Shown: positions 41,338-59,927 of the stretch, one piece after another
Numbering within the stretch: the stretch's first letter is position 1
Layout of the letters: every line of letters begins with the position of its first letter
Assembly: GCF_037023725.1 (NCBI RefSeq)
Contig: NZ_CP146077.1
Coordinates: 5,056,501-5,120,500, forward strand
Direction: 5' to 3'
From: Pseudomonas bubulae
GTDB taxonomy: Bacteria; Pseudomonadota; Gammaproteobacteria; Pseudomonadales; Pseudomonadaceae
Length of the DNA stretch: 64,000 nt
Made by a program: the position numbers and the translations under genes
Notes under the pieces: generated by a model
Told to the model about the DNA's origin: nothing
The model's database searches: none
What the model saw: the letters and a program-made list of their open reading frames with translations, nothing else

Positions 41338-41486
41338 GGGTGAGCTGAACCACTTCGATAAGGGGGCACTTCGACAGAATCTGGAAGCGCCGAGTAAAAG
41401 CGAAATTTCTTACAATGGCCGACACGATACAGAGGTTCTGGTGGTATTCGGATACATCATTTTGTAAAACCTGTTCGCTATACATG

Positions 41487-41514
41487 ACGACCTTATTATT
41501 ACAAAAAAGGTCGT
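41487..41514 (+). promoter_or_regulatory. Hairpin covering the ribosome site of the autotransporter gene
   Basis: ACGACCT (41487-41493) and AGGTCGT (41508-41514) form a 7-bp stem with an AT-rich 14-base loop. The AAAAAGG sequence that would serve as ribosome site for the ATG at 41520 is partly inside the right arm. It may slow or condition translation. Confidence 0.4.
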
Positions 41515-41519
41515 TCGTC

Positions 41520-44489: not shown

Positions 44490-44510
44490 TCAAGCGGTGC
44501 GTGGAATACT

Positions 44511-44657
44511 TGTAGCAGCTGCCGAGGAACGAAGGCTGCGTTCGAGGGCGAAGACCTCGTAAAACCTGAGCGTTCAATCTATCTGATGCAGCGAAGTGTC
44601 TGATTTCACGACGGCTTCGCCGCCGAACGCAGCCTTCGTTCCTCGGCAGCTGCTACA
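44511..44657. repeat. Intergenic inverted-repeat element with perfect 34-bp arms
   Basis: The left arm (44511-44544) starts TGTAGCAGCTGCCGAGGAAC and the right arm (44624-44657) is its exact reverse complement. Partial pairing continues inward for about nine more bases. The 79 bases between the arms have no open frame of note. It resembles non-coding REP/MITE-like elements of Pseudomonas; no transposase is present. It sits between the convergent autotransporter and terE genes. Confidence 0.88.
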
Positions 44658-44670
44658 GGTGTTTATACAC

Positions 44671-44707
44671 AAAAAAAAGGCCCTCCCCGATACCGGGGAG
44701 GGCCTTT
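44671..44707 (-). terminator. Intrinsic terminator at the end of the ter cluster
   Basis: AAAGGCCCTCCCCG and CGGGGAGGGCCTTT form a 14-bp stem with loop ATAC. On the minus strand it is followed by a run of T residues, 17 bases after the terE stop. It also has a shorter T-rich end on the plus strand, so it may work in both directions. Confidence 0.9.
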
Positions 44708-44723
44708 CGTTTAACGCTGGGGG

Positions 44724-45302
44724 TTAGCCCAGGTTAACGCCAAAGTTCGAAGCCAATGGCGCCAGGCCACCGGCAAAGCCCTGACCAATTGCCTTGAACT
44801 TCCACTCTTCGCCATTGCGATACAGCTCGCCGAAAACCATCGCGGTTTCGGTCGAAGCGTCTTCGCTCAGGTCAAAACGTGCCAGCTCCTTGCCGTCAGC
44901 CTTGTTCAGAACGCGAATGTAAGCGTTGGATACCTGACCGAAGTTTTGCTTGCGGCCATCCGCTTCGTGAATGGTCACCGCGAAAGCCAGTTTTTTGGCT
45001 TCTTGCGACAGACCCGACAGGTTGACGTTTACTTGCTCATCATCACCGTCGCCGGCGCCCGAGCGGTTGTCGCCCTGGTGCACAACGTTGCCGTCGGGCG
45101 AAGTCTTGTTGTTGTAGAACACAAAGCTGCCGTCGTTCAGCACTTTGCCGTTCTCACCAACGATAAACACCGAGGCGTCCAGGTCGAACTCCTGACCGTC
45201 AGTAACCCGTGGGTCCCAACCCAGGCCTACAACCACTTCGGTCAGGCCAGGTGCTTCTTTGGTCAGGGAGACGTTGCCGCCTTTACTCAGACTTACTGCC
45301 AT
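44724..45302 (-). CDS. terE: TerE, TerD-family stress protein
   Basis: 192 residues, a full-length single-domain TerD-family protein. It begins [20 protein letters not shown] and contains [21 protein letters not shown]. The calcium-binding loop [13 protein letters not shown] near residues 76-88 is complete, as is the C-terminal [14 protein letters not shown]...[10 protein letters not shown]. The [17 protein letters not shown] variant is typical of TerE rather than TerD. It is the last gene of the ter cluster, 39 bases after terD, and is followed by a strong terminator. Family proteins are cytoplasmic and may gather at the membrane with TerC and TerB. Confidence 0.92.
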
Positions 45303-45341
45303 GTTCGTGAACCCTTATATGAAAAGTTGATGGGGTGCAGA

Positions 45342-45917
45342 TTAAAACTTCAGGCCGTAGCTTTCCGCCAATGGCTTGAGACCGCCAGCAAAGCCCTGGC
45401 CCACAGCGCGGAACTTCCACTCGGCGCCATTGCGATACAGCTCGGCAAAGATCATCGCGGTTTCGGTGCTGGCGTCTTCTGCCAGGTCATAACGCGCCAC
45501 TTCACTGTTGTTGTCCTGGTTCACAATGCGGATGAAAGCATTGCGCACCTGACCGAAGTTTTGACGGCGAGCGTCAGCTTCGTGAATGGTCACGGTAAAC
45601 GCGATCCGGTCGATGTCAGCGGGTACTTTGGACAGGTCGACCTTGATCGCCTCGTCATCACCGTCGCCTTCACCGGTACGGTTGTCGCCCGTGTGTTCAA
45701 CCGAGCCGTCCACGCTTTTGAGCTGGTTGTAAAAAATGAAATCGGAGTCAGCGCGTACTTTACCGTCAGCCTTGAGCAAGAAAGCGCTCGCATCCAGGTC
45801 GAAGTCTTGACCATCGGTGGAGCGAGCATCCCAGCCCAGACCCACGAGGACTTTGGTCATCCCGGGGGCTTCTTTGGACAGAGACAGGTTGCCGCCTTTG
45901 GAAAGGGAAAGTGCCAT
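45342..45917 (-). CDS. terD: TerD, tellurite/chemical stress protein
   Basis: 191 residues with [23 protein letters not shown] and the complete calcium-binding loop [13 protein letters not shown] near residues 76-88, as in enterobacterial TerD. AAGGAG lies just upstream. It is a close paralogue of the neighbouring terE product. TerD proteins bind calcium and contribute to resistance to tellurite, colicins and phage in characterised clusters; their exact activity is unsettled. Confidence 0.94.
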
Positions 45918-45943
45918 GTGTAATTCTCCTTAGTAATGTGCGA

Positions 45944-46990
45944 TCAAGCTTTCGTGTCGTTGTTAACGTCGGATTGCTCTTCTTCCTTACCGGGAAAGAT
46001 GATGCTGGCCACGATACCGATAGCCAAGACCACCAACACCACAATCAGACTGGTGTTTGGATCAATTTCATAACCATGGCCAAACAGGTGATCGGTTGCG
46101 TTCAGGGCCAGCTTGCCGGCGATAAAGAACAGCAGGGCGATAACCGCTTTTTCCAGGTGCACCAGGTAGCGTTTCAGTGCTTCGAGAACGAAGTACATGG
46201 TCCGCAGACCCAGAATGGCGAACATCATGGCCGAGTACACGATCAAGGGTTCACGGCTCACGGCAATCACTGCCGGTACGGAGTCGAAGGCAAACAGAAT
46301 GTCTGAAACCTCAACCACCACCACACACAAAAACAGTGGGGTAGCAAAAAGAGCGCCCTTGCCTACAAGAGTCATTCCCTTGTTCTGCGGCTTCGTGATC
46401 TCTTTTTCAAGCTCTTTGCGTGAAACAAAGAAATTATGCCCGTGCAGCTTCGGCCAGACCGGGAACAGTTTTTTCGCAAAACGGTAGGCGATGTGCTTGG
46501 AGTAATCCTCCTCCTCATCCTCTTCCTTGCTGCGCAACATCATCACTGCGGTCCAGGCCACGACCACGGCAAACAGCACTTCGACCCAAGGGCCAAACGC
46601 CAGCAGGCCAGTACCGATCGCCACGAAAATCAGGCGGAACACAATGGCGCCGATGATGCCCCAGTACAGAACCCGGTGACGCAATGCGTCCGGGATCTTG
46701 AACCAGGCAAAGATCGCCATGAACACGAACAGGTTGTCGACGCTGAGTACTTTCTCCAGCGCATAACCGGTAACGAACAGGCTGGCCACACTTGGGCCGT
46801 GGGCCACATACAGGTAGCCCGCAAACATGAGCGAGATCACCACCCAGAACACCGACCAGACGGCGGCGTTGGTCAGCGAGACCGGTTTATCGCTTTTGTG
46901 GGTAAACAGGTCGATTGCCAGAGCAATGACCGCCAGAGCCACAAATACAGCGATGGTAGTTGGCGGAAAGCCAATTGCCGTGTTTTCCAT
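45944..46990 (-). CDS. terC: TerC, integral membrane protein
   Basis: 348 residues from the ATG at 46990 (GAGG five bases upstream); an in-frame start six codons earlier is less well placed. The protein has about nine hydrophobic segments, with the TerC-family acidic residues in membrane helices visible in EKVLSVDNLFVFMAIF and DILFAFDSVPAVIAVSREPLIVY. A charged loop EDEEEDYSKHIAYR lies in the cytoplasm. It is thought to anchor the Ter complex and may move metal ions. It lies between terB and terD in the usual gene order. Confidence 0.94.
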   Translation of the reverse strand: MENTAIGFPPTTIAVFVALAVIALAIDLFTHKSDKPVSLTNAAVWSVFWVVISLMFAGYLYVAHGPSVASLFVTGYALEKVLSVDNLFVFMAIFAWFKIPDALRHRVLYWGIIGAIVFRLIFVAIGTGLLAFGPWVEVLFAVVVAWTAVMMLRSKEEDEEEDYSKHIAYRFAKKLFPVWPKLHGHNFFVSRKELEKEITKPQNKGMTLVGKGALFATPLFLCVVVVEVSDILFAFDSVPAVIAVSREPLIVYSAMMFAILGLRTMYFVLEALKRYLVHLEKAVIALLFFIAGKLALNATDHLFGHGYEIDPNTSLIVVLVVLAIGIVASIIFPGKEEEQSDVNNDTKA

Positions 46991-46997
46991 GATGTCC

Positions 46998-47447
46998 TCA
47001 GAGATCAAAATCGCCAGGGTTCAGCCCCAGCTCATTGCAGATAGTGCGGCAGGCAGCCCGCTCACTTTCATCGAAGTTGCCGTCGGCGCTACCGATTGCG
47101 CAGCAAACACGCACCAGCAGGCGGGCGGCATCTTCTTTTTTACGTAGCTGACCGATAGATTTCAGCGCTTCAGCGCGACCGATCTGCTGGTCAAATTCAA
47201 ACTTTTCACACACGGCGTTGAAAGCTTTGATCACGTCCTTGACGTCAAAGACCTTCAACTCATTGGAGTTTTGAATAAATCCGACCATTTTCTGTTTTTC
47301 GTCACTGCTGATATTGCCATCGGCAGCGGCCACCAGTGCGCAACCGGAAACCACGGCTTCCATAAACTCACGGTTCTTGAATTTGCTGACTTCCGCCGAG
47401 AGCTTGTCACGGGCGGCGCTTGCGTTGGTTTTGAGCCATTCGAGCAT
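46998..47447 (-). CDS. terB: TerB, cytoplasmic stress protein
   Basis: 149 residues from the ATG at 47447, which has AAGGTG upstream (a GTG three codons earlier is also open). The helical TerB domain contains two metal-binding motifs with acidic residues, AAADGNISSDEKQKM and GSADGNFDESERAA. TerB is known to link the TerC membrane protein to TerD-family proteins. The stop lies 7 bases before the terC start. Confidence 0.93.
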   Translation of the reverse strand: MLEWLKTNASAARDKLSAEVSKFKNREFMEAVVSGCALVAAADGNISSDEKQKMVGFIQNSNELKVFDVKDVIKAFNAVCEKFEFDQQIGRAEALKSIGQLRKKEDAARLLVRVCCAIGSADGNFDESERAACRTICNELGLNPGDFDL

Positions 47448-47513
47448 TGGAGTCACCTTGTCAGAAATTGCAGGTACGGCGCCTGTTTCATCAGGCGGCC
47501 ACTTACAGAGCGC

Positions 47514-48719
47514 TCATTTGGAGCCGGCAGCCCAGCGCATACCCCAACCAAACGCTTTATCCATGTCAGAGTGGCCCTTGAAGAATTCAACCCGACGGTT
47601 GACCTTCACACTGCCACCGACGTTTTCGAGCAAAGCAATGGCGCACATGCCTTTGGTCCCGCCCTCTTCGCTCAGGCGCACTTCTATCGGCGGCTCACCC
47701 GGGATGTACAAGGTGATGACACCGTCAGTCGCCTGCCAGTTCGGGGCACCTTCGTAGATGAACGCGTAAACCAGCACGCGACGCATCTTGCGCCACTCCT
47801 TGCCATTGATGCGCAACCACTCGCCGTCACTTACCGAGCCGGTGCGGTCGTCGCCCATCAACTGGATAAACGGCTCGTCACGGAAATCACCGAAGGCATT
47901 GCCCAGGGCCTGTACCGCGCCTTTGCGGCCGTTCTCCATTTCGTACAGGCAGCCCACGTCCAGGTCGATCCCGCCCGACTTGCCGCGCAGCGAAGCAAAG
48001 AAGCCGCCGCCCCCGGCGTTGGGGTTGGTACGGTTCCAGTTGAGGTTGATCTTGATCTCGCCGAAGTCACCGTCCTTTTTCTCAAGGCTGATGGACGGAC
48101 GCTGCTTGTCCAGGGTGATCTTCGACAGATTGATTTTCGCTGCCGGTGCCGGTGCTGGTGCTGGAGGCGCTGGAGGTGGCGTCGGCGCTGCTGCCGGAGC
48201 AGGAGCAGGAGCAGGAGCCGCAATATCAACCCCAAAGTGCTCGGCCAAGGGCGCAAGGCCACCGGCAAAGCCCTGTGCTACGCAGCGGAACTTCCACACG
48301 CCCTGACGGCGATAGAACTCGCCAAGGATCAACGCGGTTTCCTGCATGCCCTGGGTCGGAATCGGTGCTTCGATGCCGCCGCTCACCGTTACGGTCAACT
48401 GCGGGAAGGCGTCGAAACGGGCCTTGTTCTCATAGATGGTTGCGGTGAGGGCGACTTTTTCGATGGCCTGATCAATGGCGTCCAGATTGACGCTGAACAC
48501 ACTGCGACCTGCAGCCGATTCCACCAGCTTGACCGCGCCATTGTTGACGCTTTGCTGGCCGAAGAAGCACATGTCGTTGTCGCCACGCACCTTGCCCGAC
48601 TCATTGAGCAAAAACGCAGAAACGTCCAGGTCCGCGCCGGTTACCGGGGTATAGCTGACGGTGACGCTCAGGGTACCGCTGGCAACGCCGGTGTTGGCGC
48701 CCGGGGTCAATGTGGTCAT
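47514..48719 (-). CDS. terA: TerA, two-domain TerD-related protein
   Basis: 401 residues with two TerD-like domains separated by an Ala/Pro-rich linker (about residues 165-193). The first domain (about 1-160) has GADLDVSAFLLNESGKVRGD. The second (about 200-395) has GGIDLDVGCLYEMENGRKGA and a changed ion loop beginning GDDRTGSVSDG. The start overlaps the terZ stop by ATGA. The repeated Ala-Pro codons of the linker create a local low-complexity DNA stretch near 48140-48225. Confidence 0.92.
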   Translation of the reverse strand: MTTLTPGANTGVASGTLSVTVSYTPVTGADLDVSAFLLNESGKVRGDNDMCFFGQQSVNNGAVKLVESAAGRSVFSVNLDAIDQAIEKVALTATIYENKARFDAFPQLTVTVSGGIEAPIPTQGMQETALILGEFYRRQGVWKFRCVAQGFAGGLAPLAEHFGVDIAAPAPAPAPAAAPTPPPAPPAPAPAPAAKINLSKITLDKQRPSISLEKKDGDFGEIKINLNWNRTNPNAGGGGFFASLRGKSGGIDLDVGCLYEMENGRKGAVQALGNAFGDFRDEPFIQLMGDDRTGSVSDGEWLRINGKEWRKMRRVLVYAFIYEGAPNWQATDGVITLYIPGEPPIEVRLSEEGGTKGMCAIALLENVGGSVKVNRRVEFFKGHSDMDKAFGWGMRWAAGSK

Positions 48720-49306
48720 GAGCGCACCGCCTGGGCTGCGTCAGTGGCCAGATCCTGGGCGGTACGGCCATTGGCCACGGTGCCGATGGCGGTCAGGTCC
48801 CAGCCCGCCGATGTGCGGCTGATGTATGCCATGACCACGCCGGTGTGACGGCCCTTGTCCGACAGGTTGAAGCGCGCCAGCTCTTTGCCGGTCAGCTCGT
48901 CAACGATACGGCAGTAGGCGTTTTCTACCGCTTCGAAATTTTGCCCGGTAAACGAGTTCACGGTAAACACCAGGTGTTTGACCCCGGCTGGCAGCTGCTC
49001 CAGGTTGACCTGGATCGACTCGTCGTCGCCATCGCCCTCACCCGTGCGGTTGTCGCCGGAGTGCACGATGGAGCCGTCTTTGGACTTGAGCTGGCGAAAC
49101 CACACCAGGTCCAGCGGTTGTTTGGCACTGTCGAGCAGGATGCACGAAGCATCCAGGTCGATGGCGGTATCACTGCTCAGCAGCTTGGCGAAAAAACCGC
49201 TGGGCTTGACCGGATCCCAGCCCAGGCCCATGCGAATTTTCTTGAGACCGGCTCCCGCTTCTTTCTCGAGAGAGATGGTTTGATTCTTGGACAGCGAAAT
49301 GGCCAT
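48716..49306 (-). CDS. terZ: TerZ, TerD-family stress protein
   Basis: 196 residues from the ATG at 49306, which has AAGGAG upstream. It contains GLGWDPVKPSGFFAKL, DLDASCILLD and the calcium-binding loop [13 protein letters not shown]. The longer insertion after the first strand and the VVMAYISRTSAGWDLTAIG end are typical of TerZ. It is the first of six structural ter genes and follows the biosynthetic module after 73 bases, where a separate promoter could lie. Confidence 0.92.
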   Translation of the reverse strand: MAISLSKNQTISLEKEAGAGLKKIRMGLGWDPVKPSGFFAKLLSSDTAIDLDASCILLDSAKQPLDLVWFRQLKSKDGSIVHSGDNRTGEGDGDDESIQVNLEQLPAGVKHLVFTVNSFTGQNFEAVENAYCRIVDELTGKELARFNLSDKGRHTGVVMAYISRTSAGWDLTAIGTVANGRTAQDLATDAAQAVRS

Positions 49307-49379
49307 GAAACGTCTCCTTGTCTGCACTGAAGCACGATAGGTAATTACTGATTATTGACATGCTTTGCTTGCGCCTGGC

Positions 49380-50057
49380 TTACAGCTCCTCGCGCAAGCA
49401 CACGTCAAGTGGCCGCTTGCGACGCCACAGTGCGTGAAATTCACGCCAATGCGGCTCTTGAGCGGCTCCGAGCATCTGTTCATCGCCCCGGGTGTCACCC
49501 CAGGCACGCAGTGTGTATTGGTCCAGAGGCCCGTATTGCGCCTCCAGCCGAATGACTTTTTGTTCACAGCGACAGTTGGTGCCCTCGATATCCCCGGTCA
49601 GCACGCCATCGACTGAGGCCAGCCGTGTACCGATCAAGCCGATACCGAGTTTTTTGGCAAAAGGTGTGAGCACCAGTTCAGGGGACGCCGAGCAAATTGT
49701 TACCTTGGCGCCCTGCTCAATCTGGTTGGCGACGGATGTTAAGCCCAAAGGCCGCATCAGACGCTGCCAGGAAACGTCACAAAATGCTTCAGCGCGCTCC
49801 TTTACCCAGGCCTCTTTGGCGCCGGTCAGGTAGACCGCGATCAGTTTCTCTTTCAAATCATTGCGAGAAATCCTGCCCAGCAGGTAGCACGCCGTGGCCG
49901 GAATCATCCGCAACAGGCGCATCGCGAACAGGCGATTGCCAAAGGCAAAGCGCAAAAACGGCACAAAGCTGTCGTGATAGGTCAGTGTGCCATCGAAGTC
50001 GAACGCTGACAGAACCTGCTTGTTGCCTTTGTCCGATGTATTCAAAACGTCGTTCAA
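49380..50057 (-). CDS. HAD-superfamily (HAD-IB type) hydrolase of the ter module
   Basis: 225 residues. The start is a TTG at 50057, because the previous in-frame codons contain a stop and no ATG precedes the active site; the TTG overlaps the CitE-like gene stop (TTGA). HAD motif I is DFDGTL (nucleophile D20, acid D22), motif II lies in TICSASPE, the motif III lysine is probably in EQKVIRL and motif IV is WGDTRGDEQML. It resembles phosphoserine-phosphatase-type enzymes. Ter-linked HAD proteins are predicted to dephosphorylate an intermediate made by the neighbouring PRTase and CitE-like enzymes. Confidence 0.85.
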   Translation of the reverse strand: MNDVLNTSDKGNKQVLSAFDFDGTLTYHDSFVPFLRFAFGNRLFAMRLLRMIPATACYLLGRISRNDLKEKLIAVYLTGAKEAWVKERAEAFCDVSWQRLMRPLGLTSVANQIEQGAKVTICSASPELVLTPFAKKLGIGLIGTRLASVDGVLTGDIEGTNCRCEQKVIRLEAQYGPLDQYTLRAWGDTRGDEQMLGAAQEPHWREFHALWRRKRPLDVCLREEL

Positions 50058-51013
50058 CCCACTAATTCAGCCAATCTCAGGCTGCCTCCAAAAGTGTCTG
50101 TCGGGCAGGCGACTTCAGGGCGAACCCCTTGCCAATGTGCCCGTTCAATAATTGTTTGCGCCCATTTGTAATGGGTCGCAGGCTCGCACATGGCGTCGTT
50201 GAACTTGAACACCGCAGGCGCCGCCTCACTCAATATTTGGCGTGCGCTGTTGAGATCTTCAAGGCTGACTTGCAACGCCCTGTGGATAACTGCAATTTGT
50301 GACGGGTGAATCGCAGTTTTCCCTACAAGCCCGTGAGCCATATCCAGCGCCAGTTCCTGATCCAGCACGTGTGGCGTATTGAGCTGCTCGAACACCGGTG
50401 CGGTCAGGGCAAAACCTGCCGAGCCCATGATCCCGCACAACATGGGAATCACATAGCTCATGGGCGTGCTGTACAGGGTCATGGTTTGTGGACGACGCAA
50501 ACCCAGGCAGCCCATCAGGTCGTTGCCACCGATGCGCAGGGCAATAATGCGCTCAGGCAACAGCTCCAGCATGGCGCTGCGCAGCTCTACCATGGCATTG
50601 GGCACAAAGACTTCCGGGGTTTCCAGAGTGGGCATCAGCATCAGGTCGTCGCGGGTCACCGCCTGCTGCCACTCGCGGATATTGCCCAGGCTGAGTTTGG
50701 GCACCACAAAACCGTCGACATGGCGCATCAGCGACCAATCATTAAGCACCGCTGCCATTGCCGCATCACGCGGGCGCACAAACAGGATCGGCCCCGCCGA
50801 CGGGCGGCCACCACCGGCTTCGATGCCCAGCAGCAGATTCTTGAGGTTGTTCAGCCCCTGCTGCACGTCGATTTCGGCCACGGCGTCTTCCAGGCACACC
50901 ACCAGCGAGCGTAAACCCTGGATCTTCTCGCCCAGCACCACATCCAGAATATCGGAACGGGTGGCCGGCATATAAAGTGTGGCGCCCAAGGCATAGGCTG
51001 AATGCTTGATCAT
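50054..51013 (-). CDS. CitE-like HpcH/HpaI-family lyase of the ter module
   Basis: 319 residues, a TIM-barrel protein of the citrate-lyase beta / HpcH family. It shows LRSLVVCLEDAVAE with the metal-ligand acidic residues, LFVRPRD with the conserved arginine, MPTLETPEVF and LRIGGNDLMG. The start overlaps the PRTase gene stop (ATGA). Enzymes of this fold make or break C-C bonds on acyl or keto-acid substrates. In Ter clusters it belongs to the conserved set predicted to build a small metabolite; its substrate is unknown. Confidence 0.88.
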   Translation of the reverse strand: MIKHSAYALGATLYMPATRSDILDVVLGEKIQGLRSLVVCLEDAVAEIDVQQGLNNLKNLLLGIEAGGGRPSAGPILFVRPRDAAMAAVLNDWSLMRHVDGFVVPKLSLGNIREWQQAVTRDDLMLMPTLETPEVFVPNAMVELRSAMLELLPERIIALRIGGNDLMGCLGLRRPQTMTLYSTPMSYVIPMLCGIMGSAGFALTAPVFEQLNTPHVLDQELALDMAHGLVGKTAIHPSQIAVIHRALQVSLEDLNSARQILSEAAPAVFKFNDAMCEPATHYKWAQTIIERAHWQGVRPEVACPTDTFGGSLRLAELVG

Positions 51014-52107
51014 CAGCGAACACTCCTGATTACGGTCACAGCGCGATACGGCCCCAGTTCATCACCGACTTCCTGGACCTCGATATTGGCCTGGCGCGTC
51101 AGGTGCAACAGCAGTTGCACGTCCTGATCGTCAAGGTTGCGCACCAGCACGTGGTCCGGTACCCGGCGCATCACGGCGCGGGTGGCCTCGGCGATCCCCG
51201 GTTTGACCCGGTTGGGGTTGGTCACCGCAAACCGCGTCGAGATACGTTCGACCGCGGCTACCGCCGAGTGTTGCAAGGCTGCGGCCTGCTCCAGTGTCCA
51301 GGGTTGCGCAGCGGCCAACGGGGCAAGCTGTGCCCGCTCGGTTTCGATGCTGTGGATAAAACTCATGGTCACGTCGTGTTCCGCCAAATGGTCATACACC
51401 ACGCAACCATGCAGGCCCGGGGTTTGCGGCCAGATGGAACGAGAAACCAGCCCGGAAACCGTAGCCCCCAGAATGCCCGAGGGGATCAGCCAGTCTTCAG
51501 CGGACGCCGCCAGCCAGGCGCGGCCACAAGGGTCCGCCAACACCACCAGGCGTGGGTCTGCCGGGAAACGCGAGTCTCCCGCCAGGCTGTCGCGGATCTG
51601 GCCGCTGATCGCGCCCTTGCCGGTCCAGCCATCGACAAACACGATGTTTTCGGCACCGTGGCTCTTGATGATAGCTTCGAGTGCGACGTTGTCGATTCCA
51701 CGGTCACGAATAATGCTGATGCCGTAATGCGCAGCCTCGCGCCCCAGATCAAGCAGCGCCCGGCGCAGCAGTACACCCAGCGGTAAACCGGCGCGCACAA
51801 AGGACACCAGCGCAATCGAGGGGCCGTTGTAGCGCTCATTCAAGGCCAGCGCCAGCGCCTGCACATCGGCCGCCATGCGCGCGCCATTTTGCGTCAGGGC
51901 ACGCTGGTAAAGGCTTTTATGGGTGTCGGACGGCGCATGTTCCTGGCTGATCATCTCGGAGTAATGGCGTTGCCGGGTCTGGATCAGCCGCTCTTTTTCC
52001 TGCACGTCGGTGACTTCAATCTGTAGGGCGCGCAGTAAAAAGTGCACGTCATCGGCGTCATAGCTGCCACTGCCGACGGTTTCCAGGCCTACGAAAGCAT
52101 TACTCAT
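51013..52107 (-). CDS. PRTase-like and PELOTA-domain protein of the ter module (StiP family)
   Basis: 364 residues from the ATG at 52107; the longer open frame shadows the HAD gene. The N-terminal 280 residues look like a phosphoribosyltransferase-related domain, with SFVRAGLPLGVLLRRAL and a PRPP-loop-like ENIVFVDGWTGKGAI at residues 153-167. The last 65 or so residues match a PELOTA-type RNA-binding domain (DHVLVRNLDDQDVQLLLHL). Family members are variously annotated as StiP cysteine proteases or PRTase_1/PELOTA_1 proteins. In Ter operons this protein is thought to take part in making or transferring a nucleoside-like compound. It overlaps the upstream HAD gene by 8 bases. Confidence 0.8.
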   Translation of the reverse strand: MSNAFVGLETVGSGSYDADDVHFLLRALQIEVTDVQEKERLIQTRQRHYSEMISQEHAPSDTHKSLYQRALTQNGARMAADVQALALALNERYNGPSIALVSFVRAGLPLGVLLRRALLDLGREAAHYGISIIRDRGIDNVALEAIIKSHGAENIVFVDGWTGKGAISGQIRDSLAGDSRFPADPRLVVLADPCGRAWLAASAEDWLIPSGILGATVSGLVSRSIWPQTPGLHGCVVYDHLAEHDVTMSFIHSIETERAQLAPLAAAQPWTLEQAAALQHSAVAAVERISTRFAVTNPNRVKPGIAEATRAVMRRVPDHVLVRNLDDQDVQLLLHLTRQANIEVQEVGDELGPYRAVTVIRSVR

Positions 52108-52858
52108 GGTCGACGCTCGCCAGCACATGAGCGGCCAACTGCCCGCGTTTGGGCGTGCCCCACCAGTCGCACTCGGCCATAAAGCCCAGGTCCGACACAC
52201 TGTCACCGAAGCCCAGCAACGGGCGCTTGCCGTTGATCGCCTGATCGCGGCGGATCCACTCACGTACCGCTTCACGCTTTTGCAGGGTGATGGGCAGAAA
52301 CGCCAGGTTGTTGCCATTGCCGTGTACATACAGGCCATCGAGCAACCCGCGCGCCTTGACCTCGGCCAATACGACGAGCAGCGCTTCGTCGGTTTCGTTG
52401 TTGTGCTTGGTGACCACGTAATTGGCCAGGCCCTGCTCTTCAACCACCCAGCCACGCAACGAAAAGCCAAGTTCGGCACCAATGGCCAGGGTTTGCTCGC
52501 TCAGTTGATGCAACCGGGTTTGCTCAAGGGCCAGTTCGTCGCACATGCGCGCATGCCAGACCGGGTCCAGCGAGCCGTCAGGCTTGAGAATCACGCCGCC
52601 GTGGGCACACACCGCGCCGTGGACGAACGGCAATTGCACACGTTGATAGGCCTCGATGCTGCGCGCAGTTACGGGGACGACATCGCTGGTGGCCAGCAGC
52701 CATTCCACAAAGCTCTTTTGTGTTGCGCTCATAAAGCCGTTGGGCTGGCCGTCCACATCCAGGGTGGCGGCAAAGCGTGGCTCATCACCCATTTTGCGGG
52801 CGGTTTGAAACAGGGTGTCGTCCAGATCAACGAACACCAGAGGACGATTACTGCTCAT
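52100..52858 (-). CDS. HAD-superfamily (Cof/sucrose-phosphatase-like) hydrolase of the ter module
   Basis: 252 residues from the ATG at 52858. Motif I is VDLDDTL with D11 and D13, motif II VPVTARS, the motif III lysine is in LQKREAVREW and motif IV is GFGDSVSDLG. The large cap insertion between motifs II and III places it with Cof-type phosphatases. It overlaps the upstream PRTase gene by 11 bases and the downstream StiP-family gene by 8, implying tight co-translation. It is the second HAD enzyme in the module, so two separate dephosphorylation steps are likely. Confidence 0.87.
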   Translation of the reverse strand: MSSNRPLVFVDLDDTLFQTARKMGDEPRFAATLDVDGQPNGFMSATQKSFVEWLLATSDVVPVTARSIEAYQRVQLPFVHGAVCAHGGVILKPDGSLDPVWHARMCDELALEQTRLHQLSEQTLAIGAELGFSLRGWVVEEQGLANYVVTKHNNETDEALLVVLAEVKARGLLDGLYVHGNGNNLAFLPITLQKREAVREWIRRDQAINGKRPLLGFGDSVSDLGFMAECDWWGTPKRGQLAAHVLASVDHE

Positions 52859-53984
52859 CAACGATTACCTGCGCATTCAACGCGCTAACCAGCGCCGGAT
52901 CGACCGCAGCTGCCGGGGTTTCGCTGCAGATCAGCACCCGGTCGAACTGGCCGGGGGCGACGTTATAAAGAAAGTTGGGGATACCCAGGCCATAGTTATC
53001 CGAGAACGACAATGCATGATCGATGCAATGGCCCAAGGCAATGGGCGAGCGGCTGGTGGAGCTGAAGCGCACGTCGGCGCCCGCCCGCTCAAGGCGCTCG
53101 GCCAGCAGAAACGGGCGCCAGACAAATTCGCTGGTGCCGACCACCAAGACCCGTTCACCTGGGGCGACCTGCAGATCGGGCGCCAGGGTATCAAGGTGTT
53201 CGCGAACGCCCATGCGCCCCCAGTCACGGCTGGCATCAAGTGCCCAATCGCCCTGGGCCACGCTGCCCACTTCGGGCATTTGAGGGAGCTCTGCGGTGGT
53301 ATCTTCGTCGAACGTGTAGCGACCATCGAGCAAAGAGACGCTGCTGACATGATCGCCCATGGCCTTGCGCACAGCGTCCCGGGACCAGTCGGTCAGGGTC
53401 GTGGTGACAATACGCTCGACCGAGTTGAGCCCTGCTTCGGCCAGCGCCCGGGACAGATTGATAAAGGTATTGCCGGTAGAGGCTTCATCGTCCACCAGCA
53501 CCAGCGAGCGGGCGTTGAGCATCATCTCGCGGGTGTGTGCGTCTTGCGGCAAATGCAGCAGATGCGAGCTGGCGTGACTGTGCTCTTCTTCAAAACGGGC
53601 AAACAGTTCACTGCCCGTAGGGTGGCGGCTGCTGCACAGGTACAGGCTGTCATCACGGGTCTGGCTGAGCGCACGGTGCACGCCAGCACCCAGGCCAACG
53701 GCGGTTTCAGCCATGCCGATAACCAGCACCGGACCGGGCAGGTCGGCAGGGATTTTTGCAGCCAGGGCATTGAAGCTTTCCGCCATCAGTGACGGCCGTG
53801 CCGGGATATGACGCCCCAATACACGGGAAACGAATAAAAAGGCGCGCTTGGGGTTTCGGCGCTCGGCAAAATCGAAAAGTGCCTGTGGCTCAAAGGTCGA
53901 TGCATTGACCTCTACCTCCAGACGACCGCGCTTGAGGTTTGCATGCAATACCTTGGGTTCGGTCTTGGAATTACCGCTGTTCAT
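52848..53984 (-). CDS. Phosphoribosyltransferase with TRSP domain (ter module)
   Basis: 378 residues. A PRTase domain occupies about residues 20-215; its PRPP-binding loop LVLVDDEASTGNTF is at 161-174 and is close to the classical consensus. The C-terminal half carries the TRSP-type domain seen only with such PRTases, including GERVLVVGTSEFVWRP and a DRVLICSETP block. It probably joins a base-like moiety to phosphoribose. A 77-base gap separates it from the TerD-protease gene upstream, so it may have its own promoter. Confidence 0.85.
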   Translation of the reverse strand: MNSGNSKTEPKVLHANLKRGRLEVEVNASTFEPQALFDFAERRNPKRAFLFVSRVLGRHIPARPSLMAESFNALAAKIPADLPGPVLVIGMAETAVGLGAGVHRALSQTRDDSLYLCSSRHPTGSELFARFEEEHSHASSHLLHLPQDAHTREMMLNARSLVLVDDEASTGNTFINLSRALAEAGLNSVERIVTTTLTDWSRDAVRKAMGDHVSSVSLLDGRYTFDEDTTAELPQMPEVGSVAQGDWALDASRDWGRMGVREHLDTLAPDLQVAPGERVLVVGTSEFVWRPFLLAERLERAGADVRFSSTSRSPIALGHCIDHALSFSDNYGLGIPNFLYNVAPGQFDRVLICSETPAAAVDPALVSALNAQVIVDEQ

Positions 53985-54061
53985 TGATGTTTACTACCTG
54001 AACATACTGAAAAAATGGGGGACGATTAGGGAGACGGGGGGTTAAGACAAGTAAAAAATGG

Positions 54062-55204
54062 TTACTGAAGATGGCTGGCGTCAATCCGCCACAGTCCAGC
54101 CTGCGAAGCGCGTACCAACTCCGGCGTGCTCAACGAACGTTCACTGCACCCGCGCCGGGCCGGTACACGGGCTGCCTCAAGGAACGCCAGTACCAGCGCC
54201 GACTTGACAGCAAAGTTCATGTTCTGCGCATCCGCCATGCTCGAGGTCACCAGGCCACTGACCAATCCTTGCGGGTCAAACACCGGGCTTCCGCTGGAGC
54301 CGGGCTGAATCGGTGCGGTGAACTGCATCAGGCTGGCATCGTCGCGAAGGCCAAACAGGCCCGAAACCACACCTTGGGAAACTTGCACGCCACCGCCTGC
54401 CAGCCCGGCGAGCGGAAACCCCAGGGTGACGACACTTTCGCCCAGCTCACAGCCCACGCCCTCACGAAAAGTCACCGGGTTCAAAGGGGGGGCACCAATG
54501 ACCCGCAGCAAAGCGAGGTCGTTCTTGCGATCGACCACCACAGACTCCGCCTTGTATCGACCCTCAAAGGACGTAATCGACAATTGCTCGAGGCCTTCAA
54601 TGACATGGGCACAGGTCAAAATATGCTGGGTGCTTACGGCAAAACCAGTACCTGTAGCCCCTTGGCGCGCAACGCTGTCGTCTGATGCCTCAGGTCTCAT
54701 GCGTTGCGGATGACGATCATCCAGAGCCAGCCCCAGGCGTCGGGCAAACGCGCTCAAGCCGTAGGCGGACGCTTCGGCGAGTGCGCGGATTTTCCATTGA
54801 TCGCTGCGTCGGTACACCTCGGCAATGACCATTGCGCCATCACCGAACTCATCCAGTGCCAGACTGTGCTCGATCTGCTCACCGACCTTGAGCCGGAACT
54901 GGCCGAGTTCACGTAACGGACCCAGCGCGCCGAACACATAGAGCACCAGCAATACACGCTCACAATCTGCAGGCAATTGTTCCAGCACCAGGCTGAAGCG
55001 TGCCAGGCCGGCGGTGTCATGCCATGCCAGCCAGGGTTGCGGGGCGTGTATCAGCGCAGGCTCCCCGACGGGTTGGCGCTTGCCATCCACGGCCAGCAAC
55101 GCCAGCCCCGCATAGTCACCCAATGCGCCCGCTCGCGAGCAGGTCAGGCTCATCTCACAACGCACAGATTCAAGGGCCGCATTGGCGCCCGGCATCAATA
55201 TCAT
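54062..55204 (-). CDS. TerD-like domain fused to a trypsin-like serine protease
   Basis: 380 residues from the ATG at 55204, which has GGGGAG upstream. Residues 1-160 form a diverged TerD-like domain (DGAMVIAEVYRRSDQWKIRALAEASAYGL) in which the [11 protein letters not shown] ion loop is missing. Residues about 180-345 form a chymotrypsin/trypsin-fold protease with catalytic H200 (CAHVI), D229 (KNDLALL) and S304 (GSSGSPV); the triad is complete. There is no signal peptide, so the protease is cytoplasmic. The fusion suggests that Ter signalling controls proteolysis of some cellular or foreign target, but the target is unknown. Confidence 0.88.
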   Translation of the reverse strand: MILMPGANAALESVRCEMSLTCSRAGALGDYAGLALLAVDGKRQPVGEPALIHAPQPWLAWHDTAGLARFSLVLEQLPADCERVLLVLYVFGALGPLRELGQFRLKVGEQIEHSLALDEFGDGAMVIAEVYRRSDQWKIRALAEASAYGLSAFARRLGLALDDRHPQRMRPEASDDSVARQGATGTGFAVSTQHILTCAHVIEGLEQLSITSFEGRYKAESVVVDRKNDLALLRVIGAPPLNPVTFREGVGCELGESVVTLGFPLAGLAGGGVQVSQGVVSGLFGLRDDASLMQFTAPIQPGSSGSPVFDPQGLVSGLVTSSMADAQNMNFAVKSALVLAFLEAARVPARRGCSERSLSTPELVRASQAGLWRIDASHLQ

Positions 55205-55244
55205 CGCTTGTGACTCCCCTGTGCCCGCGACAAACAAGAGCTGA

Positions 55245-56258
55245 TCACCTTAACAGCTCTTCTCCGCGAACCGGAACCACCACCGTGATTGCCTTGACCT
55301 GCACATTCTCGCGCCATGTACTGGCTGGCACGGGCAGGCCCAGGCGGCGTGCGGCAAAGATACCCGGCAGGTTGACTCCGGCTTCGCGGGTGTAGCCGAT
55401 ACCGCCAGAATAGCGCAGGTTGATCTCCAGCAAATGCGGCTGGCCTGCGGCATCATCCCGGGTCTGCACATTGACGATACCGTCGCACTTGAAGTGCCGC
55501 GCCGCCTTGATCGCCAGTTCGACCGCCGCACCGTCGCGCTCGAATGTCTGCATCAGGCCCTGCTTGCGCCGCCCCACATAGGCCACGGCCTCGCCCGCCT
55601 CACAGACCATGTCCACCGAGCATTCGCTGCCGGGCATATAAGGCATCACCAGCAACGGTTGGGGCGCATCCGATTGACCGTAGGCCTGGGCAAACACCGC
55701 CGCATTGACTTCATGGGCGTCGGCATTGGCAAAACTGCGAAACGGGTCCACGTTATCGGCCAAACGCCAAAAGCCCTGGCCGTAAATACCGCGCGTCGGT
55801 TTTACACACACCTGGCCGTCGCGGGCCAACTGGGCGTAAGCCGTCTCCAGTTCAGCCTGGGTGCTCACCGTCATCGCCGGTATGCACGCCAGCCCGGCCG
55901 CCAAGGCCTCACGGGTAAACGTCGACTTGTCGTCAACCCGCTCAAAGGTTTCCAGGTCCAGCGCCCCGGTAATCAATTGCAACCCGGCTGCTTCGAACTC
56001 GGCGCGGTGCGCTTCATATACCTGACCCACACGCCCGGCCAGCACCACCTTGATCTGCCGGGCGCGGGCCTGCTCGATCACCCAGCCGATGCGCTCCTGA
56101 TTGTCTTGCGGCTCCCGCCAGGCGACATCCGCCAATCCGGTGATTTCAGGGCGATTTTGGCGGTGCGAGGCGAAAATTCGCACGGTGTCCGGCAGCGCCG
56201 CCCGGGCACCTGCAATCACATCGCGTTGGCTCGATTGCCCTTCAAGAAACCAGATCAT
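55245..56258 (-). CDS. ATP-grasp ligase of the ter module
   Basis: 337 residues from the ATG at 56258, six bases after an AAGGG site; the ATG at 56264 is too close to it. It is an ATP-grasp protein with ATP-binding blocks VCVKPTRGIYGQGFWRL and MPYMPGSECSVDMV and the metal-ligand region LEINLRYSGGIGYTREAGVN. ATP-grasp enzymes join a carboxylate to an amine or thiol with ATP. It is the first gene of the 13-gene minus-strand ter cluster. Its substrate is not known. Confidence 0.88.
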   Translation of the reverse strand: MIWFLEGQSSQRDVIAGARAALPDTVRIFASHRQNRPEITGLADVAWREPQDNQERIGWVIEQARARQIKVVLAGRVGQVYEAHRAEFEAAGLQLITGALDLETFERVDDKSTFTREALAAGLACIPAMTVSTQAELETAYAQLARDGQVCVKPTRGIYGQGFWRLADNVDPFRSFANADAHEVNAAVFAQAYGQSDAPQPLLVMPYMPGSECSVDMVCEAGEAVAYVGRRKQGLMQTFERDGAAVELAIKAARHFKCDGIVNVQTRDDAAGQPHLLEINLRYSGGIGYTREAGVNLPGIFAARRLGLPVPASTWRENVQVKAITVVVPVRGEELLR

Positions 56259-56434
56259 GAACATCCCTTGGTACGGATAAACGCGGGAGTCTAGCGGATG
56301 GCCGCTACCAACGCCCTTAGTCATTAGAGGGAGGTCGTGTAACCAAATATGAAATTAATTAACTAAATAGTTCATAATGTGCGGCATCGTGTCGCGCCCC
56401 GTCGCCGACACTTCATATAAAGGAGCTTCTGTAG
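56259..56434. other. Divergent promoter region between the ter cluster and the porin gene
   Basis: 176 bases with AT-rich sequence near 56340-56380. It contains the palindrome AACTAAATAGTT at 56362-56373 and the sequence CATAAT just after it, which may be a -10 element for the porin. A strong AAAGGAG site precedes the porin ATG. No separate promoter for the ter cluster is obvious by eye. Confidence 0.45.
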
Positions 56435-57730
56435 ATGTTTTTCTCTTCCCGCGCCCTGCTGAACACCAGCCTGTGCGGCGGCTTGTCATTGCTGGCCCTG
56501 ACGCCTGCCTGCGTACTGGCCGACACCACCGACAACCTGATGAACCGTTCGACCCTGACCGGCGACTGGGGCGGCGAGCGCCAAAAGCTGATCGACAAGG
56601 GCATCAAGCTGACCGGTGATTACAACTCCGAAACCTTCTCCAACTTGCATGGCGGGATCAAGCACGGCACCCGCTACTCGCAACAAGTGCGTATCGGTGC
56701 CCAGTTCGACCTGAGCAAAATACTGGGTAGCGCCGATGCTGGCCTGGTGCAAATCACCGTCAATGATCGTCGCGGTCACAGCGCCTCCGAAGACCTCGTA
56801 GGCAACCGCCTGCCAATCCAGGAAAACGCCGGCGGCAACTACACCCGCCTGTCCGAGTTCAGCTACCAGCGCACCCTGTTTTCCGAAGACCTGACCACCA
56901 AGGTTGGCTTTATGCCAATGGGCAACGACTTTGGCGGCATGCCGCTGTTGACCAGCTTCGTCAACGCCGGTTTCTGCGCGCATCCGCTGACGCAGTCCAA
57001 TGGCAGCGGCTGGACCAACTACCCCACCGGCCACTGGGGCGGCGAACTGCGCTACACCGTCAGCCCGGCCCTGACCCTGCAAACCGCCGTGTTCCAGGTC
57101 AACCCCGAATACAACAGTCGCTCCTCCGAAGCCTTCAGCATGACCACCAAAGGCACTACCGGAGCGATCATGCCGCTGGAAGCGATCTTCACCAACAACG
57201 CCTGGCTCAATGGCCAATACAAAGTGGGCTGGTACTACGACACCTCCAATACCCGCAAGATTGGCAGCACGCAAAAAGCCAACAACCGCACCGGCGCCTA
57301 TGTGCTGGTCGACCAGGCCATCTGGCGTGATGAGCAAGACCCCGAAAGCGTATTGCGCGCCTTTGGCCAGGCATCCAGCAGCAATGCCGCGACCTCGCCT
57401 ATGCGCCACTGGTACTCGGTAGGCCTGGTCAAACAAAAGCCGTTTGCCAGCCGCCCCAAAGACAGCATCGCCTTTGCCTACGGCCGCGCCGTATTCAACT
57501 CGCGCTCCCGCGACGTGCAGGAAGCGGCAGCCAGCAGCCCGGAACAGGCGGACATGATCGCCAGCCTGGACAGCGGCGAGCAGTTGCTGGAGCTCAACTA
57601 CGGCGCGCAAGTCACGCCGTGGCTGCTGTTGCGCCCGGACCTGCAATACATCATCGAACCAGGGGCTTTCTACGGCGCCAAGCGCAGCAATGCGCTGGTC
57701 GCGGGGCTGCAGGTCAAGGCAACGTTCTGA
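56435..57730 (+). CDS. oprB: OprB-family carbohydrate porin
   Basis: 431 residues with a signal peptide of about 29 residues ending VLA. The mature part starts DTTDNLMNRSTLTGDWGGERQ, the typical OprB beginning, and continues with alternating beta-strand sequence. It ends NALVAGLQVKATF with a C-terminal Phe, as in outer-membrane barrels. OprB porins let glucose and related sugars cross the outer membrane. Here there are no sugar ABC genes beside it, so it is probably a stand-alone paralogue of the glucose-cluster OprB. Confidence 0.9.
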   Translation: MFFSSRALLNTSLCGGLSLLALTPACVLADTTDNLMNRSTLTGDWGGERQKLIDKGIKLTGDYNSETFSNLHGGIKHGTRYSQQVRIGAQFDLSKILGSADAGLVQITVNDRRGHSASEDLVGNRLPIQENAGGNYTRLSEFSYQRTLFSEDLTTKVGFMPMGNDFGGMPLLTSFVNAGFCAHPLTQSNGSGWTNYPTGHWGGELRYTVSPALTLQTAVFQVNPEYNSRSSEAFSMTTKGTTGAIMPLEAIFTNNAWLNGQYKVGWYYDTSNTRKIGSTQKANNRTGAYVLVDQAIWRDEQDPESVLRAFGQASSSNAATSPMRHWYSVGLVKQKPFASRPKDSIAFAYGRAVFNSRSRDVQEAAASSPEQADMIASLDSGEQLLELNYGAQVTPWLLLRPDLQYIIEPGAFYGAKRSNALVAGLQVKATF

Positions 57731-57745
57731 CACAACCGTTTGCGT

Positions 57746-57782
57746 AGCTTTCACAAAGCTTTAAGGTTTGCCCTCCTATACT
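57746..57782 (+). promoter_or_regulatory. Promoter of the ArnT-like gene with palindrome at -35
   Basis: A perfect palindrome AGCTTT-CAC-AAAGCT (57746-57760) is followed by TTAAGG and then the -10 element TATACT (57777-57782). The -35 position falls inside the palindrome edge, which is typical of promoters needing an activator. The regulator cannot be named from sequence; envelope-stress response regulators are one possibility. Confidence 0.45.
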
Positions 57783-57820
57783 CCAGGCAGTACTCCATTC
57801 GATTGCTGCCTGGTAGCCCA

Positions 57821-59281
57821 ATGCGTCTGACTCGTCCTGCCCTGCTGTTACTGCTTCTCGGTTGCGTGCTGTTCTTTTTTGCGCTGGGGAATCACCAATT
57901 GCAGGGCTCGACAGAGTCCCGCGTGGCAGGCATAGCCATGCAGATGCACCTGAGCGACGATTGGGTAACGCCCAATTTGCTCAATGCCCCCTTCCTGGAA
58001 AAACCACCCCTGAGCCTCTGGCTGGATGCAGGAGCCATTCGCGTATTCGGCGGCGAACTGTTCGCCGTACGCCTGGCTTCGGCCTTTGCCGGTCTATTTT
58101 GCGTGTTGTTGCTCTATGCAATGCTGCGCAAGCTGGGCCGCCCCACAGCACTGGCCTGGACAGCCGCCGCCATGCTGGCAACCATGGGCATATTTTGGGG
58201 CAACACCCGCCAGGTGGGCGAAGATGCCTTGCTCACCCTGGGCGTAACCATGGCCTTGCTGGCGTTTTTTCATGCCAACCGTCAACCCGGTTTTGCCCGG
58301 GGCAGCTGGCTGTTATTCGCGACCGGCATCGCCATTGCCACCTTGAGCAAAGGCGTCCTGGGCCTGGCACTGCCGGGCGTGGTGATTTTTGTTTATCTGG
58401 TGTGTGAAAGCCTGCTGGAAAAACGCTTCAAGCCGCGCAACTGGCTACGCCCTGCCCTGCTGACCCTATTGGGGCTTATCCCGCTGACGGTCTGGCTGTG
58501 CATGCTCTATCAGCGCGGCGGCATGCCGTTAGTCAGCGAACTGCTGCTGACCAACAGCGTTGGCCGTTTTAGCGGTTCCTTTGTCGAGGCCGGGCATTAC
58601 GAACCCTTTTACTACTACCTGCGAAAACTGCCCGAAGCCTTCCTGCCGTGGAACCTGCTGACCTATCTGGGCCTGTGGCACTTTCGCAAACAACTGCGCA
58701 GCAACCCCTTCCTGTTGTTTTTCTGTGTATGGCTGGTCGCGCAATTTGTGCTGCTCAACCTCGCCTCCAGCAAGCGGGCGGTGTACATGATGTCGATGGC
58801 CCCTGCGGCTGCAGTGATTGCCGCCGAGTACGCCCGGGTGCTGCTGGGCTGGCTGTACCAAAAAAGCGCGCACTCGACCGTGGCCAAATTCTTCAGCGAC
58901 AACCATCGCCCGCTTGCCATCGCGCTGCTGGCCGCTCTGGTGGGCGCCTACCTGCTGGCGGCCCATCGGGCACCGCTGGCCGACAAGGAACAGTCTTTCC
59001 AGCCCCTCGCCGCTGAGGTCATGAGCCTGCAGGCCAGCGGCAAGCAGGTCGCACTGCTGCGGCCCGACGAACGCCTCGGCGCCGTGGTGTTCTACAGCCA
59101 GCAGTTGCAGCACACCCTCAGTTCAACCGAAGAGTTGCAGGCATTCCTCAGCGCATCCCCCGACAATATCGCCCTGGTAGAAAACCCCGAGATACCGGGC
59201 ATGGCCCTCAAGACTCTCGACAAGCTCAGCGTCGGCCGGCACCACTTCTACCTTGTCAGCCTGGCCGCTTCAGCCCCATAA
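57821..59281 (+). CDS. ArnT-like phospholipid-carrier-dependent glycosyltransferase
   Basis: 486 residues from the ATG at 57821. It is an integral membrane protein of the PMT/ArnT family: a first helix, then an acidic periplasmic loop with STESRVAGIAMQM (E in the catalytic position), EKPPLSLWL, and about 11 further helices. The C-terminal domain (about 400-486) is periplasmic. Such enzymes move a sugar from undecaprenyl phosphate to an envelope target, for instance aminoarabinose to lipid A. It is shorter than E. coli ArnT and no arn operon is nearby, so the donor sugar is uncertain. Confidence 0.85.
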   Translation: MRLTRPALLLLLLGCVLFFFALGNHQLQGSTESRVAGIAMQMHLSDDWVTPNLLNAPFLEKPPLSLWLDAGAIRVFGGELFAVRLASAFAGLFCVLLLYAMLRKLGRPTALAWTAAAMLATMGIFWGNTRQVGEDALLTLGVTMALLAFFHANRQPGFARGSWLLFATGIAIATLSKGVLGLALPGVVIFVYLVCESLLEKRFKPRNWLRPALLTLLGLIPLTVWLCMLYQRGGMPLVSELLLTNSVGRFSGSFVEAGHYEPFYYYLRKLPEAFLPWNLLTYLGLWHFRKQLRSNPFLLFFCVWLVAQFVLLNLASSKRAVYMMSMAPAAAVIAAEYARVLLGWLYQKSAHSTVAKFFSDNHRPLAIALLAALVGAYLLAAHRAPLADKEQSFQPLAAEVMSLQASGKQVALLRPDERLGAVVFYSQQLQHTLSSTEELQAFLSASPDNIALVENPEIPGMALKTLDKLSVGRHHFYLVSLAASAP

Positions 59282-59373
59282 ACTTGATCCCGGGCAACGC
59301 AACCGCAGATACCGTGGCCGATCACGGCACATTGACTACGCTCCTTGGACAATTCCCGACCAAGGAGCCCGCC

Positions 59374-59880: not shown

Positions 59881-59900
59881 GGGGGGATGGGTTGACTCTA

Positions 59901-59924
59901 TGGGCGCGAGCCTGCTCGCGCCCA
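59901..59924. terminator. REP-derived bidirectional hairpin
   Basis: A perfect palindrome, TGGGCGCGAGC and its complement with a 2-base loop, fills the 47-base gap between two convergent genes. It looks like a shortened REP unit and probably ends both transcripts. It is not followed by a T-tract. Confidence 0.6.
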
Positions 59925-59927
59925 CGA

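Follow-up and report, generated by a model that had tools for sequence, protein, structure and literature searches.

What do the enzymes encoded beside the ter genes of a Ter stress cluster make, and what is the product for? The question is raised by a locus in a stretch of 64,000 nucleotides from Pseudomonas bubulae (contig NZ_CP146077.1, positions 5,056,501 to 5,120,500; hereafter the window), in which thirteen open, co-directional genes, all on the minus strand, span positions 56258 to 44724. The locus is a further member of an already known type, the Ter cluster with a biosynthetic module. We hold with moderate confidence, at about an even chance, that it is a single-operon Ter stress cluster of the Pseudomonas/Burkholderia type, in which the PRTase_2-TRSP and StiP-PELOTA proteins would make a ribosylated signal that is sensed by TerD-family proteins. 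To the known picture, the present comparison adds the apparent identity of the module phosphatase HAD1 with a trehalose-6-phosphate (T6P) phosphatase, the predicted fold of StiP, the minimal PRTase_2-StiP pair, and counts of the optional genes.

Gene Organization of the Cluster

Open reading frames and Pfam profiles give the order, from 5' to 3', ATP-grasp enzyme, TerD-trypsin fusion, PRTase_2-TRSP, HAD1, StiP-PELOTA, CitE-like lyase, HAD2, TerZ, TerA, TerB, TerC, TerD, and TerE. The domains recognized along the cluster are ATPgrasp_Ter, TerD with Trypsin_2, PRTase_2 with TRSP, StiP with PELOTA_1, C-C_Bond_Lyase, HAD, TerD in both TerZ and TerA, TerB, and TerC; thus terZABCDE-type genes directly adjoin the genes of the biosynthetic module. 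Since the profile E-values reach 1e-98 and the same gene order recurs in relatives, the identity of the cluster lies far beyond chance. A preliminary description had placed a thirteen-gene, one-direction Ter cluster at 44724..56258, with most neighboring genes overlapping or lying within about 80 bases; both the coordinates and the gene list are correct, and the 12 intergenic distances range from -14 to +80 bp. The genes would form a single transcript. The StiP gene most likely starts at 52107, while a longer reading frame, from 52482, opens at an upstream TTG. Directly 3' of terE, a terminator-like hairpin (44675..44708, minus strand) of 15 pairs followed by TTTTGTGTAT was recognized by a consensus scan, by its sequence, and as an inverted repeat; the scan of the region returned 20 sites against 13.7 expected, among which this hairpin has the longest stem. 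The host genome (5.26 Mb, 3 contigs) contains five TerD-domain matches, every one of them within the cluster.

The PRTase_2-StiP Pair

The PRTase_2-TRSP protein (52848..53984) has a predicted phosphoribosyltransferase (PRTase) fold, the model being APRT-like, and its structural matches barely cover the TRSP domain. Its loop residues V164, D165, D166, E167, S169, T170, G171, and T173 each recur in at least 98% of 81 sequences and form a canonical phosphoribosyl pyrophosphate (PRPP) loop. Conservation counts here and below cover the extractable reading frames of the relatives, i.e., 45 for the ATP-grasp enzyme, 61 for HAD2, 77 for the CitE-like lyase, and 81 each for PRTase_2 and HAD1.

The StiP-PELOTA protein (51013..52107) had been labelled PRTase/PELOTA in the preliminary description. 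Pfam calls the protein StiP ('cysteine protease'). The predicted fold is HGPRT/PyrR-like: the matches listed are mostly PRTases, with PyrR among the best, although the best Foldseek E-value is only 5.6e-4. Other matches, such as a pyridoxal phosphate (PLP) aminotransferase, have probabilities of 0.4-0.7 and TM-scores near 0.2 and were treated as noise. The database name 'cysteine protease StiP' is probably misleading; no literature linking StiP with tellurite and TerD turned up. The loop of StiP, VDGWTGKG, is invariant in 49 sequences and, judged by eye, is shortened and altered relative to the canonical PRPP loop. This invariant but altered DGWTGKG loop within a PRTase fold, together with the resemblance to PyrR and the fused PELOTA_1 domain, would also fit a non-catalytic, PyrR-type RNA-binding regulator that senses PRPP or a nucleotide and controls expression or translation in response to the PRTase_2 product. 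We consider this alternative to a catalytic partnership of StiP with PRTase_2 unlikely.

Linkage of the Module to the ter Genes

Within the genus, 199 Pseudomonas genomes, drawn evenly, were compared, with the lyase counted above 300 bits. The C-C bond lyase occurs in 29 and TerD in 30 of these genomes, and in all 29 lyase genomes TerD-family genes share the contig of the lyase at a distance of no more than about 6 kb, as judged from the positions in both tables; the thirtieth TerD genome (G063) has one weaker TerD match. HAD1 follows the same distribution, with 32 matches in the identical 29 genomes, while the remaining 170 have no match. A full TerD-trypsin protein occurs in 23 of the 29 module genomes; it is absent from five (G009, G080, G132, G196, and G198) and reduced to a fragment with a stop in G126. 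The cluster is thus patchy in the genus, yet retained as a block.

Named relatives were drawn from the best 80 of 274 matches to StiP as the query (67-99% identical), so that their frequencies describe Pseudomonas and Burkholderia kin; 73 loci with room on both sides were counted, seven being omitted because a contig end was too near, and gene presence was decided by score thresholds that we set. PRTase_2, HAD1, and StiP are found in all 73 loci and the CitE-like lyase in 72, whereas the ATP-grasp enzyme is found in 61, TerD-trypsin in 59, and HAD2 in 59. The corresponding counts for the Ter proteins are TerZ 71, TerA 70, TerB 68, TerC 67, TerD 71, and TerE 71, where cross-hits between paralogues may inflate the TerD-family figures and where L066, with inverted ter genes nearby, was scored as lacking them; the gene order of four loci (L027, L028, L032, and L092) was flagged. 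The complete thirteen-gene set is present in 50 of the 73, and the nearest named locus, also from P. bubulae (L018), encodes module proteins 98-100% identical to those of the window.

The preliminary description had allowed that biosynthetic and ter genes might usually stand apart in related genomes; instead, they occur together in 29/29 module genomes of the genus and in 72/73 named loci. The sole exception, L083 from Paraburkholderia nodosa, lacks ter genes altogether; its lyase is truncated, the locus also holds an IS66 transposase gene and two integrase genes, and the whole looks like a decayed copy of the module. HAD2, the ATP-grasp enzyme, and TerD-trypsin are optional members. Because HAD2 and the ATP-grasp enzyme are so often missing, the path suggested earlier, two dephosphorylations followed by a final ATP-grasp ligation, is not general. 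Several Burkholderia relatives (L087, L088, L091, and L096) have the cluster without the ATP-grasp enzyme, HAD2, and TerC. No PF15632 match above 30.1 bits was found in 11 of the 12 genomes, several of them drafts, whose loci lack the ATP-grasp gene; the twelfth, B. ubonensis (G501), has a match of 75.8 bits elsewhere in the genome, and the other genomes have either no match or matches of up to 30.1 bits, mostly in frames 1076-1081 residues long, which we read as CarB.

Beyond the genus, profile cut-offs were applied to a phylum sample of 299 genomes, in which PRTase_2 is found in 9 and TerD in 39. Eight of the nine PRTase_2 genomes also contain TerD, on the same contig in six (that of P. bubulae included) and on different contigs in two drafts. 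In the eight loci outside P. bubulae, HAD1 intervenes between PRTase_2 and StiP in six, and StiP directly follows PRTase_2 in two (L107 and L108). Both of the phage records compared contain the pair, accompanied by HAD1 in the jumbo phage ME3 and by a lyase homologue in an unannotated scaffold (L112). The constant core of the module in the loci compared is therefore PRTase_2 next to StiP, mostly in the company of HAD1 and the lyase. As a separate observation, the adjacent PRTase_2-StiP pair of L107 (genome G447) stands in a genome without a TerD match and represents the pair without Ter.

This constancy bears on the simplest alternative, that the locus is an ordinary tellurite resistance cluster in which the enzymes are passengers. 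According to the excerpted text of a Klebsiella study, terZ-F in trans is enough for tellurite resistance in Klebsiella and in E. coli MG1655 (PMC8115787); hence, that phenotype does not depend on the module. However, passengers would hardly account for PRTase_2 and HAD1 accompanying StiP without exception in the named loci, nor for the recurrence of the PRTase_2-StiP pair among the phylum-level loci and the phages, and we regard the passenger explanation as quite improbable.

HAD1 and Trehalose-6-Phosphate

HAD1 (52100..52861) has no Pfam match, and it matches the PDB chains 6D3V, 6D3W, and 6CJ0, named 'Trehalose phosphatase', with an E-value of 4.4e-104 and 158 identical residues among 245 aligned (64%). 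A 394-kb plasmid of P. aeruginosa carries the same 13 genes in order, and its HAD1, annotated there as a hypothetical protein, is identical to the 6D3V chain at 233 of 251 positions (93%); in some other plasmid records the gene is labelled trehalose phosphatase. The 251-residue PDB chain contains exactly two cysteines, 85 and 231, numbered from the start methionine, each of which is retained in at least 98% of the 81 module HAD1 proteins. In the available portion of the report on the extrachromosomal T6P phosphatase of P. aeruginosa, Cys85 and Cys231 are named as special to the enzyme (PMC6838324). Because the 93% match lies inside a thirteen-gene cluster and the two cysteines are shared, the assayed T6P phosphatase is, as far as sequence can tell, the HAD1 of a Ter module. 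Cross (2018, FASEB J) is said to be the founding paper on this enzyme. A literature search combining 'trehalose 6-phosphate phosphatase' with 'tellurite' gave no paper among the matches listed.

A concern raised in the preliminary description, that the enzymes might have known and unrelated substrates, is half borne out, since a published T6P phosphatase is a member of the HAD1 family. The question is whether T6P is its natural substrate. Two sources of T6P, OtsA and the trehalose phosphotransferase system (PTS), were searched for within the 29 module genomes. OtsA (PF00982) is absent from 28 of them, that of P. bubulae included, where HAD1 accordingly does not stand beside a T6P synthase. The trehalose PTS makes T6P from imported trehalose, and its IIBC component is above the cut-off in eight genomes (P. 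bubulae and seven others). Neither source is above the cut-off in 20, one of which (G051) has partial, broken PTS matches of up to 125.5 bits. T6P as the natural substrate of HAD1 is weakened by the near-absence of OtsA and the scarcity of the PTS, although P. bubulae itself has the PTS. Since HAD1 was found only with the module while neither source is above the cut-off in 20 of the 29 module genomes, T6P probably substitutes for a similar phosphate ester that the module produces, and the database name 'trehalose phosphatase' is probably misleading.

On the contrary reading, HAD1 is a true T6P phosphatase and the module is part of trehalose metabolism or of T6P detoxification. The identities to chain 6D3V (64%, and 93% for the plasmid copy), the plasmid gene names, and a trehalose PTS IIBC of 705.6 bits in P. 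bubulae, through which T6P could come from imported trehalose, all favor it. However, the distribution of OtsA and the PTS just given does not, and HAD1 tracks the module, with no match in any of the 199 genomes outside the 29 that carry it; PRPP enzymes are not known to take part in trehalose metabolism. We judge it very unlikely.

The Lyase, the Tailoring Enzymes, and the TerD Family

The CitE-like C-C bond lyase (50054..51013; PF15617, 330.7 bits), aligned with 1sgj and 3qll, carries the motifs LED, RPR, PKL, E131, GGND, and GKTAIHP.Q, which recur in at least 98% of 77 sequences and part of which bind metal. HAD2 (49380..50057) is an HAD-IB phosphatase, with 100.6 bits to Pfam HAD and 106.4 bits to TIGR01490 (cut-off 98.3), and the ATP-grasp ligase (PF15632; 55245..56258) scores 138.6 bits against a cut-off of 29.1.

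The TerD-trypsin fusion (54062..55237) scores 87.8 bits to Trypsin_2 and 27.5 bits to TerD, its TerD part spanning the C-terminal half of the Pfam model only. The residues H211, D240, and S315 of a protease triad are at least 95% conserved in the 41 aligned sequences, 30 further loci with a match having been left unaligned. All of the 120 homologues listed, out of 440, combine Trypsin_2 with TerD; the architecture is a known one, and the protein recurs often in the clusters of Pseudomonas and Burkholderia. A PADLOC scan of ten proteins, nine of them from the cluster (all but TerB, TerC, TerD, and TerE), matched TerD-trypsin alone among the cluster proteins, to RT-Protease_XI at 57.3 bits and weakly to LmuA, PDC-M35A, and Avs1b, matches that may reflect no more than a shared trypsin fold. 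That StiP is itself a cysteine protease, acting with TerD-trypsin in a proteolytic stress system rather than a mainly biosynthetic one, is suggested by its PF11202 label, its NCBI names, and the invariance of Cys194, His233, Cys235, and His240 in 49 sequences, yet we consider this highly improbable, and no cysteine protease is among the structural matches listed for StiP, an absence that excludes nothing.

TerZ (48716..49327) and TerA (47514..48719) match Pfam TerD at 163.9 and 115.9 bits, and TerD (45342..45917) and TerE (44724..45302) match PF02342 at 298.8 and 280.2 bits, with 74% and 73% identity to their Enterobacter counterparts. The GDNxxGxGDGDDE motif, which presumably binds calcium, is present in TerZ, TerD, and TerE and absent from TerA and TerD-trypsin. 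TerB (46998..47456) scores 86.6 bits, and the membrane protein TerC (45944..47008) scores 148.7 bits and shares 70% identity with the TerC of an Enterobacter plasmid across 343 residues.

Related Systems and Genomic Setting

The closest known systems are the Ter stress systems with a biosynthetic module (Anantharaman, Iyer, and Aravind 2012), which, as represented in the excerpted later literature (PMC7824862, PMC8115787), share the PRTases, the HADs, and the TerB/C/D neighborhood; unlike these, the P. bubulae locus forms one putative unidirectional operon of 13 genes, includes a TerD-trypsin gene, and has no TerF-type TerD protein in its genome. The ter locus of E. hormaechei plasmid pE5_001 (L110) shares homologues of the ATP-grasp enzyme, PRTase_2, HAD1, and terZABCDE (PRTase 51%, ATP-grasp 44%, and HAD1 37% identical), but is arranged as two divergent operons with a TerD-vWA protein downstream. 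About 2.7 kb past the vWA gene that closes this ter operon, SAVED-domain, ThiF-type, and Mov34/MPN genes form a CBASS-like group (12065-16998 of L110). The P. aeruginosa megaplasmid NZ_OL468012.1 (L099) has 13 of 13 genes in the same order and differs in its location on a 394-kb plasmid and in protein identities of 56-83%. The 65-kb contig IMGVR_UViG_2660238583_000003 (L098), catalogued as viral and one of 161 pattern-matching stretches, carries homologues of all 13 genes, again in the same order. The Acinetobacter jumbo phage ME3 (L111) has PRTase_2, HAD1, and StiP in the same order with a TerD protein, but tblastn of a 19-kb stretch found no homologue of the CitE-like lyase, the ATP-grasp enzyme, or TerD-trypsin. 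Upstream of these phage Ter genes (1-2287 of L111) lie an NAD synthetase gene and an Appr-1-p processing (macrodomain) gene.

Among single proteins, the P. aeruginosa T6P phosphatase (6D3V, 6D3W, 6CJ0) belongs to the HAD1 family and shares Cys85 and Cys231, and the available portion of its description, in naming it and reporting its assay, makes no reference to Ter genes (PMC6838324). The P. syringae protein TerD-Tryp, YP_273108.1, appears in the accessible part of a 2008 survey (PMC2605481) with the same order of an N-terminal TerD followed by trypsin; it is one uncharacterized protein there, whereas the type found in the window is a cluster member in 59/73 loci.

A recent mobile insertion at this site was considered and rejected on the evidence of tRNA, Rfam, third-position GC content (GC3), and flanking genes. 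No tRNA was found in the window and no Rfam match in 41000-60000; the GC3 of the 13 cluster genes is 0.61-0.76 versus 0.73-0.81 for five flanking genes, and the GC content of the genes from terB to terE is somewhat lower (0.53-0.57 versus 0.61 for the window). The same flanking genes occur in loci of the P. fragi group (L018-L021), and a probe for an empty site with the OprB gene gave a best match outside the module genomes of 77% (G015).

Downstream of the cluster, an inverted repeat (44505-44663) of two 65-nt arms, 86% complementary and 29 nt apart, lies between the ter terminator and the gene of a 1024-residue autotransporter (41415-44489, plus strand). The autotransporter gene separates terE from a candidate defense gene (36625-41337, minus strand) encoding a 1570-residue helicase with an MTES_1575 restriction-endonuclease domain, whose best PADLOC match is PDC-S37 (197 bits), with Mko and Hhe weaker; the helicase gene also lies next to the Ter cluster in loci L018-L023 of the P. 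fragi group.

Proposed Mechanism and Its Implications

The idea that such modules make a nucleoside-like metabolite, invoked in the preliminary description as a published proposal, is indeed in print, and the available text describes the tie to the TerC complex as unclear (PMC8115787). In the model given by the excerpted part of a review on jumbo phages, citing the 2012 Ter paper, PRTases and HADs make a signal, TerB and TerD sense it, and TerC responds (PMC7824862). For the P. bubulae cluster we propose that PRTase_2, with its constant neighbor StiP, would transfer a 5-phosphoribosyl group from PRPP to an acceptor; HAD1 would then remove phosphate from the phosphoribosyl product, and the CitE-like lyase would remodel a C-C bond. 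HAD2 and the ATP-grasp enzyme, where present, may tailor the product further. TerD-family proteins on a TerC/TerB membrane assembly would sense it, TerD-trypsin would provide an optional protease output, and stress or phage attack would be the trigger.

Several observations weigh against this proposal. StiP, without a standard PRPP loop, may be non-catalytic. The relative of HAD1 was assayed on T6P and not on a nucleotide, according to the available text (PMC6838324), and the trehalose PTS of P. bubulae could supply that compound. The sufficiency of terZ-F in trans separates tellurite resistance from the module. In the phylum sample, 31 of the 39 TerD genomes have no PRTase_2 above the cut-off, and G447, one of the nine with PRTase_2, has no TerD match at all. 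L107, L108, and the phage scaffold L112 have no HAD1 in the interval from PRTase_2 to StiP, so that dephosphorylation, too, is not a step common to all. Finally, a sigma-70 promoter scan of the region gave 4 sites against 3.5 expected, none of them informative, and identified no promoter for the putative operon.

A more specific form of the biosynthetic proposal may be compared with butirosin synthesis, in which a PRTase-phosphatase pair ribosylates an aminoglycoside precursor. PRTase_2 and StiP might put 5-phosphoribose on a sugar-like acceptor, so that the product would be a pseudo-disaccharide or ribosylated glycoside rather than a nucleobase nucleoside. TerD-family proteins would bind it as an alarm ligand, with TerD-trypsin as a ligand-controlled protease effector; a sugar-like acceptor would explain why HAD1 acts in vitro on T6P, a disaccharide phosphate. 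This is a long shot.

Taken as a whole, the comparison narrows the pathway to PRTase_2 and StiP, joined in most cases by HAD1 and the lyase. The link between HAD1 and the crystallized T6P phosphatase provides one step of the Ter module with an experimental structure and with an activity that can be measured. If the pseudo-disaccharide alarm were true, Ter would be a signal-and-effector defense system following the logic of CBASS.

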